NCBI RefSeq assembly: GCF_000011005.1
Contig: NC_013665.1
Span: forward strand, 1,413,437 to 1,477,436
From: Methanocella paludicola SANAE
GTDB lineage: Archaea > Halobacteriota > Methanocellia > Methanocellales > Methanocellaceae
Length of the DNA stretch: 64,000 nt
Reading direction: 5' to 3'
The position numbers were made by a program, and so were the translations under genes. This document shows, piece by piece, positions 30,378 to 56,884 of the stretch; positions within the stretch are counted from its first letter, which is position 1, and each line of letters begins with the position of its first letter. The notes under the pieces were generated by a model. The model saw nothing but the letters and a program-made list of their open reading frames with translations, had not been told where the DNA came from and ran no database searches.

Positions 30378-30764
30378 GTGACCGAGTACCTGAAGAAGTA
30401 CGTCGACGGCTTCAAGGATGGCCTGGCGGAGGCTGCAGCTATACTCCAGAAGAACGAGCATAAGGACTGGGATATCCAGAAATATGGTGCCTTTTACGAG
30501 AATAAGTCTAACGACCTGAAGATCCGGGAGGGGACGGAGAAAGGCTACGACGAGGGCATAAAGGATGCCTATGCCACGGTCGGGCAGGACCTGCACGATA
30601 ACGAGTTCAAGGAGTATTCCATCGAGGACTACGGTAAGCTATACGAAAATATCGTACGGAAGATCGGCGACTGCCTGAACTGTAAGGACATCGGCAGCGA
30701 TAAGGGCTGCGAGGTCGGAAAGACCATATGGTGTACCAGGCTGCTGGAAACCCTTAAAGAATAA
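30378..30764 (+). CDS. Unknown small protein following dys
   Basis: The 128-residue acidic protein is not recognised. It contains a repeated motif GFKDGLAEAAAIL and GYDEGIKDAYATV about 45 residues apart, each followed by a (D/E)xxxKxYGxxYEN segment, so it is an internal duplication. The C-terminal part has four Cys (CLNCKDIG, KGC, IWC) that could bind a metal. The GTG start is preceded by GGTGAT. It lies 10 bp after dys and is probably co-transcribed. Confidence 0.6.
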   Translation: MTEYLKKYVDGFKDGLAEAAAILQKNEHKDWDIQKYGAFYENKSNDLKIREGTEKGYDEGIKDAYATVGQDLHDNEFKEYSIEDYGKLYENIVRKIGDCLNCKDIGSDKGCEVGKTIWCTRLLETLKE

Positions 30765-30811
30765 TATTTGACTCTTCCGCGGTTTTGGGATTAACATTTT
30801 TATCCTTTTCT

Positions 30812-31165
30812 CGTTATGCCTTCGTTGAGTGGTCCAACCACAGGGGCACAGAGCTCACGGAGTTTCACAGAGTTATTTTTTAATAATTTGAGGACACGGA
30901 GAGCACAGAGCCCGGTTTATTGGCTTACCCGGGGCACAGAGTTTATTGGGGCACGGTTGACGAATAAACAATTACCACATGATTATTTGATAACAGTTTT
31001 CCACCTGGACCGGTTTATCGTCAGCTATGCCTCCTTCAACTCTGTGCCCCAGGCATATTATAAACCCGTCCTCCGTGCCCTCTGAGTCTCCATCTATAAG
31101 AAATCTCTGTGAACTCTGCGCTCTCCGTGCCCCTGTGGTTGAGGACACTCAACGACCGCATAACG
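30812..31165. repeat. Foldback element A, 354 bp, no gene
   Basis: The two ends are inverted copies over about 55 bp. The left starts CGTTATGCCTTCGTTGAGTG and the right ends with its near-complement (GACCGCATAACG). Both continue into ACCACAGGGGCAC and short CACAGAG/CACGGAG motifs. Inner segments CCCGGTTTATTGGCTT (30911-30926) and GGTTGACGAATAAACAATT (30955-30973) are identical to parts of element D at 56103-56884, but the GxxExxY gene of D is missing. This is therefore a deletion derivative. It fills most of the gap after 30764. No clear target duplication is visible. Confidence 0.75.
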
Positions 31166-31276
31166 TAAAAGAGCATGGGGATCAGCTACAACAATTACGA
31201 TCCCAAAAATGCACAAGAGCTTAATATTTTAAATCTTATTTTACACAAATGGGCATTATGAATTATTTTTAAAACA

Positions 31277-36842: not shown

Positions 36843-37465
36843 AAGCCCGCGAAGAGGATCAAGTCCGCGAAGACTTATTCGAGCCCAAAGACCGCTAAGT
36901 TTACGCGAAGACCGCGAAGACTCTCTTAAAGAATTAATTATGACTTTTTAGCCTTAAAAATTTAAATGTTCTTTTGAGGCAGTATCTCGATTGTTCAGTA
37001 ATATTATTTTTCTTATTCTCCATCCTTTCTCTATGCCTTCGTTGAGTGTCCAATACACAGGGTCGCAAGGCCACGGAGAACTCACTAATATTTTTAATAT
37101 GCGAGACACTGAGGAGACAGAGAGGGGTTTATATTTACTTGAGAGACAGAGTATTACGGGGCATGGCTTATCATAAACCGGTTATATATTATAACCATCC
37201 TATTAGTCTGTTAGCAGGTTTATTGGCAACCGAGTCTCTATATTCTCTGTCAAGTGCTTTGCGAGTCATCCGTGGCCTTGTTGCCCTGTGTATTGGACAC
37301 TCCATGAAGGCATAATGTAAAAAGGAGAACGTAGTAACAGAGCCAGACTGGCAAATTACCGAAAAAGCAAGACATTGCCCTTTATATATCTTCGCGGTCT
37401 TCGCGCAAGCTTCGCGGTCTTAGGGCTCGAACAGTCTTCGCGGACTTGATCCTCTTCGCGGGCTT
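36843..37465. repeat. Foldback element C, 623 bp, containing element B
   Basis: The left arm begins AAGCCCGCGAAGAGGATCAA at 36843 and runs about 80 bp through repeated CGCGAAGACC motifs. The right arm (about 37383-37465) is its inverted near-copy, ending CTTCGCGGGCTT. The interior holds the unrelated inverted-repeat element B (37032-37314), so B seems to have inserted into C. No gene is visible in the rest. The gap from 36798 to 37522 contains only these two elements. Confidence 0.72.
37032..37314. repeat. Foldback element B, 283 bp, nested in element C
   Basis: The left end TATGCCTTCGTTGAGTGTCC (37032) is mirrored at 37295-37314 (GGACACTCCATGAAGGCATA). The arms continue through AATACACAGGG and AAGGCCACGGA on both sides, about 50 bp. 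The terminal TATGCC(T)TC matches elements A, D and E. The interior contains no credible open frame. Being inside C, it is the younger insertion. Confidence 0.72.
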
Positions 37466-56102: not shown

Positions 56103-56884
56103 TATGCCTTAGTGGCGTGTCCTTAACCACAGGGGCACGGAGAGCGCAGAGTTCACGGAGACTTTTTTTATAGATGGAGGCTCAGAGGTCACAGAGCCCG
56201 GTTTATTGGCTTTCCTGGGGCACAGAGTTTAAAGAGGCAGGGTTGACGAATAAACAATTCATACACAATATATGATTTCAAAATATTGAAATAAAGTTTT
56301 TATGTTATTATACATATTTCCCTTTATGAGCAACGTATTGACAAGAGACCCCATACCCAATGAGATTAATAAGATCACCGGACAGATCGTTGACGCAGCG
56401 TTCGTCGTGCATACGACATTCGGGCCGGGACTGCTCGAAAGCATTTACGAGGAATGCCTGATACACGAATTAAAACTCAGAGGCATAAAGGTAGAATCAC
56501 AGATTAACGTGCCTCTCGACTTCAAAGGTTTATACATTGAACGAGGCCTCATCCTGGACGTACTCGTTGAAGGCCAGGTAATCGTGGAAGTAAAATCAGT
56601 CAAAGAACTCCACCCCGTCTACGAACAACAATTACTAACATACATGAAAATAACAGGAAAACGAGTTGGATTGCTAATCAACTTTAACGCACCGCTGATA
56701 AAAAACGGCATAAAACGAATGGTCCTATAAACCATTTTTCACCACCAGTGCCTCTACAATCTCTGTGCCCCAGGAAAACAAAAATGAACCTCCGAGCTCT
56801 CCGTGCCTCAAATTATAAAAAAGTCTCCGTGAAACTCCCGTGCGCTCTGCGCCCCTGTGGTTAAGGACACGCCACGACGGCATA
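56103..56884. mobile_element. Foldback element D, 782 bp, carrying a GxxExxY gene
   Basis: Inverted copies of about 60 bp bound the element. The left begins TATGCCTTAGTGGCGTGTCC (56103) and continues TTAACCACAGGGGC. The right (56820-56884) is the complement, ending CGACGGCATA. Short CACAGAG/CACGGAG motifs fill the arms on both sides of the gene at 56326-56730. Element A at 30812 shares the ends and inner parts but has lost the gene. No transposase is visible; how it moves is unknown. Confidence 0.7.
56326..56730 (+). CDS. GxxExxY protein (PD-(D/E)XK-like)
   Basis: The 134-residue protein carries the namesake motif GPGLLESIYEECLIHEL near residue 38. An Asp...Glu-x-Lys arrangement (LILDVLVEGQVIVEVKSVKEL) follows, matching the PD-(D/E)XK nuclease fold. 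The family is widespread, often multi-copy, and its function is unknown. It lies alone inside a 782-bp inverted-repeat element, on the same strand as metK but with its own A+T-rich leader. The ATG at 56326 is preferred; an ATG at 56302 is also in frame. Confidence 0.88.
   Translation: MSNVLTRDPIPNEINKITGQIVDAAFVVHTTFGPGLLESIYEECLIHELKLRGIKVESQINVPLDFKGLYIERGLILDVLVEGQVIVEVKSVKELHPVYEQQLLTYMKITGKRVGLLINFNAPLIKNGIKRMVL

Follow-up and report, generated by a model that had tools for sequence, protein, structure and literature searches.

Our analysis suggests that a GxxExxY gene of Methanocella paludicola SANAE and the inverted repeats that enclose it form one compact mobile element. The element, here called W, lies in the window, a 64,000-bp stretch of a genome that consists of a single contig of 2,957,635 bp. 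We consider it probable, at roughly 0.6, that W belongs to a widespread type of selfish repeat element that has a single gene and is run by a nuclease, similar to a REPtron or to a homing gene. The features of the window on which the argument draws are as follows.

56103..56884, no strand: element W, a gene-bearing foldback, recognised by its inverted repeats, by two gene-bearing copies of 90% identity and by the absence of MITE ends around it
56103..56253, forward strand: left arm of W, with copies of the motifs CACGGAG, CGCAGAG and CACAGAG, three of them regularly spaced at 56136-56160
56302..56730, forward strand: GxxExxY / PDDEXK_3 nuclease gene (PF13366, E 6.7e-40; TIGR04256, E 1.9e-41)
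56735..56884, reverse strand: right arm of W, inverted, from the inverted-repeat analysis
30770..31221, no strand: element A, a gene-less foldback of the W family wrapped in a MITE, with an inner palindrome at about 30816-31163 and 24-bp terminal repeats
36843..37465, no strand: element B, a foldback of the CGCGAAG class that has inverted arms but no gene
37032..37314, no strand: a W-type palindrome nested in element B, with arms of 57 nt that are 84% complementary (TATGCCTTCGTTGAG...CATGAAGGCATA)

The core of W runs from AACCAC (56125-56130) to GTGGTT (56857-56862), and its outer arms, which read TATGCC...GGCATA, pair over 43 nt with 88% complementarity (56103-56145 and 56842-56884). Further in, a 17-nt pair is fully complementary (56152-56168 and 56817-56833), and another pair follows at 56206-56253 and 56735-56782. 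When the left flank was aligned with the inverted right flank (locus L039), the local-alignment score was 126, against 27 or less for shuffled sequences. The original prediction, that W is a GxxExxY gene with an intact D...E-x-K core enclosed in long inverted repeats and accompanied by no transposase, is borne out by these alignments, by the two family matches and by the presence of the catalytic residues; the lack of a transposase is true of W itself.

BLASTN against the same genome returned two further gene-bearing copies of W at 90% identity (G000:C1:538917 and 858981), along with 37 or more short copies that lack the gene. Three other GxxExxY genes of M. paludicola (L031, L044 and L046) are each surrounded by long inverted repeats with arm sequences quite different from those of W, and about 26 copies of the L031 arm occur without a gene. 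W itself lies between metK and rio2. The corresponding site is empty in a sister genus, with no more than about 200 bp between the genes, and is taken up in another genome by a GxxExxY element of a different kind, whose arms are of the CGCGACG type. In a further genome of the Methanocellales (G001), the motif is greatly expanded, with 508 matches to a CACAGAG pair and 35-bp tandem arrays of the CACAGAGGCACAGAGGGA type, for example at C1:108829-109028.

The GxxExxY reading frame codes for 142 residues from the first ATG, or for 134 from the likelier start at 56326. The protein passes the curated cut-offs of both TIGR04256 (141 bits versus 35) and PF13366 (136 bits versus 22), and the residues that are invariant in the family are G35, E38, Y41, D78, E88, K90 and Y106, a pattern that we take to be the E...D...ExK and QxxxY signature of the RecB/Cas4 branch. 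An AlphaFold2 model (pLDDT 94) gave LHK-Exo, lambda exonuclease and Cas4 SSO0001 as its best Foldseek matches (E about 0.004-0.02, TM up to 0.56), with a TM of about 0.5-0.56 against 4ic1. A sequence search of the PDB found no relative, and Pfam, NCBIfam and the fold search returned only PD-(D/E)XK, with no HuH (Y1) transposase domain. The protein shares with the Cas4/lambda-exonuclease branch the fold, the E...D...ExK...QxxxY residues and a weak sequence similarity, but differs in being a stand-alone domain of about 120-140 residues with a GxxExxY signature and cognate flanking arrays. Every pair of copies whose differences were usable had a dN/dS within 0.03-0.15, indicating that the copies remain under purifying selection.

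The enclosure of the gene by inverted repeats is a family-wide property. A query built from the family consensus, run against 84,980 species genomes, yielded 80 named loci from many phyla, a sample biased toward consensus-like proteins; a second sample comprised 60 other loci from 36 of the scanned genomes. With an alignment score of at least 35 within 400 bp as the threshold and 395 positions in the same loci as controls, inverted flanks were found at 57 of 74 top loci and 41 of 58 secondary copies (a count in which secondary loci L149 and L195 duplicate top loci and L037 is mis-placed), as well as at 13 of 17 Methanocellales genes, versus 5 of the controls (Fisher p 1e-51 for the top loci and 6e-39 for the secondary copies). 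Homologues that regularly lack repeats, which would have spoken against the original prediction, are thus not what the family presents. The TATGCC ends expected with every copy turned out to be special to M. paludicola; what the family shares is an inverted array of motifs.

Each arm is an array in which a 7-bp motif, C[AG]CN[AG]A[GT], is repeated, and the two arrays face the gene that they enclose. The spacing from one motif to the next is 8, 9 or 10 bp in 210, 178 and 78 cases, versus 1, 2 and 0 in control DNA; the commonest number per arm is three, and in many phyla the arms amount to three spaced motifs only. The outer motifs often read ACC[AG]C...G[CT]GGT, on both sides in 80 of 170 loci, whereas the mirrored orientation gave 24 and the controls 14. 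The complete unit of gene and arrays often measures only about 430-450 bp, and loci from many bacterial and archaeal phyla have the same layout as W. At four loci (L033, L036, L078 and L080), arms have grown into long inverted tandem arrays of units of about 35-55 bp adjoining the gene, and Microcystis genomes differ in the length of the tandem array beside it. In two genomes (L255 and L277), the right arm is interrupted between its motifs by a different palindromic repeat, of the GCCCTGAAAGGGC type.

We then classed loci by the seventh base of the motif (G, T or A). The same version was present on both arms in 103 of 105 loci (versus a mean of 69 and a maximum of 83 after shuffling), and on a FastTree phylogeny of 117 proteins the version changed 6 times, versus 18.3 upon shuffling, with none of 200 shuffles as low. 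All but one of the 16 T loci fall within one clade of the protein tree, the closest protein encoded in another genome predicted the G or T version correctly in 116 of 118 cases, and the two versions occur together in 12 genomes. The motif version tracks the protein clade and not the host. Alignment columns that differ between the clades lie around residues 36, 39, 72-74, 105, 109 and 121-129 of the W protein, itself of the G class, and are candidate positions for recognition of the G or T version. Arrays away from the gene follow the same rule: of the 12 genomes that encode a T-clade protein, 10 had triple T-version arrays in at least two positions, versus 3 of the remaining 24 (p 6e-5, Fisher test), and none of the 36 contained the reversed control pattern. 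The occurrence of at least two CACAGAGN{1,3}CACAGAG sites was likewise associated with presence of the gene (11/26 versus 11/221, p 7e-7, among 247 genomes of its own phylum, with relatedness uncontrolled). A Mantel-type k-mer test gave a weak overall correlation (rho 0.21, permutation maximum 0.10), which fell to 0.08 for proteins less than 50% identical. In a Thiosymbion symbiont (G018), 12 identical CGCAGATTACGCAGATTACGCAGAT triplets are scattered around the genome, which suggests recent spread or homogenisation.

The coupling of motif version to protein clade suggests that the protein recognises the arrays, and the PD-(D/E)XK fold of the model points to a capacity to cut. In the mechanism that we propose, the GxxExxY protein, a single-domain nuclease of the Cas4/lambda-exonuclease branch, would bind its own motif arrays and cut or nick the DNA there, and host repair or recombination would then copy the unit, or a gene-less derivative of it, into new intergenic sites. 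The protein may be what moves the element. As far as the sequences go, the coupling favours an enzyme that acts on the repeats over one that is mere cargo, although it could also arise, without any recognition, from gene and arms travelling together.

That the unit moves is indicated by comparisons between copies. Homology between related copies ends at the arms, so that only gene and arms are shared, even between phyla, as with a copy from a deltaproteobacterium and one from Nitrospinota that are 87% identical; three copies in Scalindua are 88-90% identical, L044 and L046 are 99% identical, and one archaeal family has about 14 copies at many sites, at 84-91% identity, some of them nested. At one orthologous intergenic site, G172 carries the full element, G235 a form without the gene and G255 a degraded gene-less form, with junctions at AACCAC...GTGGTT, and the site is empty in G196, G296, G299, G293 and G138. 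The presence of empty and occupied states at the same site favours insertion over ancestral repeats, as the original prediction had proposed. The target duplications that were to be sought at such sites did not materialise: none was convincing at this one, where a TTTTATT direct repeat occurs in G172 only, and none was seen for gene-bearing copies. Empty sites were also sought in the genus Microcystis, and the gene was present wherever complete flanks were found. In an archaeal family (f6; L243, L244, L245 and L246), the element lies between two genes, of which the downstream one resembles a cobalamin-type methyltransferase, and the upstream reading frame runs through the arm into GxxExxY as an open frame of 386-398 residues. 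At L063, L113 and L136, which belong to different phyla, homology of 72-76% extends about 1.4 kb downstream of the gene.

The strongest rival to this account is that the gene-less arrays are recognition sites, cut by the protein and entered by a gene-bearing copy through array homology, the arrays themselves spreading in some other way, for example by a MITE. Homing endonuclease genes include PD-(D/E)XK types such as I-Ssp6803I, and here too a small nuclease gene sits within what appears to be its own recognition region, at the middle of a palindrome, and sites with and without the gene occur, as in G172 versus G235 and G255. The lack of target duplications, the nesting of copies at motifs and within the remnant of another GxxExxY gene, and the fact that the gene-less arrays of M. 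paludicola are borne by a MITE all fit as well. Gene-less sites, however, are equally explicable as products of deletion, the five empty sites without any array imply that gene and arms can arrive together, and copies in different phyla have the arms as well as the gene in common. Moreover, GxxExxY is found without an intron or intein, and its sites are dispersed multicopy arrays instead of one site in a conserved gene. We regard homing into pre-existing arrays as possible but rather unlikely.

The gene-less elements of the window speak to a second alternative, that gene and arms are cargo moved in trans by ordinary transposases, as MITEs are, and that GxxExxY has an unrelated role in the host. 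Element A had been predicted to be a gene-less sister with the ends of W, and it does have them; it is, in addition, wrapped in a MITE, as W is not. An 8-bp duplication, TAATATTT, flanks it at 30762-30769 and 31222-31229, and the combination of terminal inverted repeats and target-site duplication, with no transposase gene, is that of a MITE. At least 17 gene-less copies in M. paludicola share the 24-bp terminal repeats GGTTCTTGTGCGTTTTTGGGATGA / GACTCTTCCGCGGTTTTGGGATGA, and many are bordered by 8-bp AT-rich direct repeats, which argues that the copies with these ends moved as a MITE, presumably through the transposase of an insertion sequence. About 20 near-identical copies of the MITE at 30770-31221 are present genome-wide, with no matching autonomous insertion sequence recognised; matches to the end pattern pair mostly at about 400-420 bp, none of them at the size of a transposase-bearing element. 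Element A was thus probably spread by an ordinary transposase, and since it carries MITE ends it is no evidence of mobility through GxxExxY. The recent gene-less wave in M. paludicola is MITE-spread, which counts against our preferred reading. W and the gene-bearing loci L002 and L003, however, show no MITE ends above shuffled sequences and no target-site duplication, and outside M. paludicola the units stop at the motif arrays. What GxxExxY units share with MITEs and insertion sequences is the many short non-coding palindromic copies, one of which, element A, is truly inside a MITE; a DDE transposase, conventional terminal repeats and a target duplication are lacking from the gene-bearing units. 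Transport as cargo also gives no prediction that motif version should track protein clade, and we think it quite unlikely. Element B, a third foldback of the window, adds to W and A; its arms (36843-36875 with 37433-37465, 100%; 36878-36920 with 37389-37431, 91%) belong to the same class as those of the GxxExxY genes L044 and L046, and the nested palindrome within it is of the W type.

It is very unlikely that the arrays are operators of a nuclease that serves the host, in defence or repair, and were duplicated by ordinary recombination. The strong purifying selection and the weak Cas4 matches of GxxExxY in PADLOC agree with such a function, as does its near-absence from plasmids and phages: of 72,556 plasmids, 5 carry it, and at the sensitivity used it occurs in none of the phage and viral contig sets, which would be unusual for an aggressively mobile element and counts against our preferred reading. 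REPtrons, too, are chiefly chromosomal. Dozens of gene-less arrays, however, lie far from any GxxExxY gene, arrays lie symmetrically on the two sides of the gene, and at the few annotated loci none of the neighbours was recognised as a defence gene. That the functional unit is a structured RNA or DNA hairpin, akin to an OMEGA-like RNA element, is scarcely credible: the long arms could fold very stably, but the covariation term is -0.21 of -100 kcal/mol, the motif positions are conserved singly, without the compensatory changes that a recognised hairpin should show, no Rfam family other than chance miRNA-like hairpins matched the eight elements searched, and three spaced motifs suffice in many phyla, so that we rejected RNA or single-stranded DNA structure as the conserved feature.

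Among known systems, the preferred reading of a nuclease-run selfish element has its closest parallel in REPtrons, that is, TnpA-REP (RAYT) with REP/REPIN repeats (PMC8266576, PMC3733652). In both, a nuclease gene lies between inverted short repeats, gene-less repeat pairs are dispersed over the chromosome, and repeat and enzyme groups have coevolved (PMC8266576, PMC3733652); GxxExxY units likewise have their gene between short inverted repeats that also occur dispersed without it. The GxxExxY enzyme differs in being PD-(D/E)XK instead of HuH, its arms comprise at least three direct motifs each instead of the small hairpins of REP, and it is often present in several gene copies per genome. The multicopy nucleotide sequences of Geobacter are similar in that palindromic and direct-repeat families fill intergenic regions (PMC2996986), a likeness at the level of description; as far as that description of the repeats goes, no enzyme is named. 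In the open-access literature (subscription papers, preprints and supplements being outside this scope), we found no report that associates GxxExxY with inverted repeats; two papers there mention GxxExxY incidentally and a single one PF13366, and neither TIGR04256 nor the motif strings were found.

The findings tie GxxExxY proteins, which are common, often multicopy and without known function, to unexplained dispersed repeats of the CACAGAG or CACAGATT type. Tentatively, and at somewhat less than even odds, the units may be prokaryotic mobile elements of a new class, spread over the archaea and most of the major bacterial phyla, and their sole enzyme would be a stand-alone Cas4-like PD-(D/E)XK nuclease that recognises clade-specific end arrays. 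If so, such elements would be the source of many unexplained intergenic repeats (CACAGAG, CACAGATT, CGCCAAG and CGCAGATGAA types). The clade of a protein predicts which version its repeats have, and which array each protein binds and cuts thus becomes a testable question. The units are candidates for a class of very small elements driven by a nuclease, and the family offers naturally matched pairs of nuclease and site that differ in specificity.
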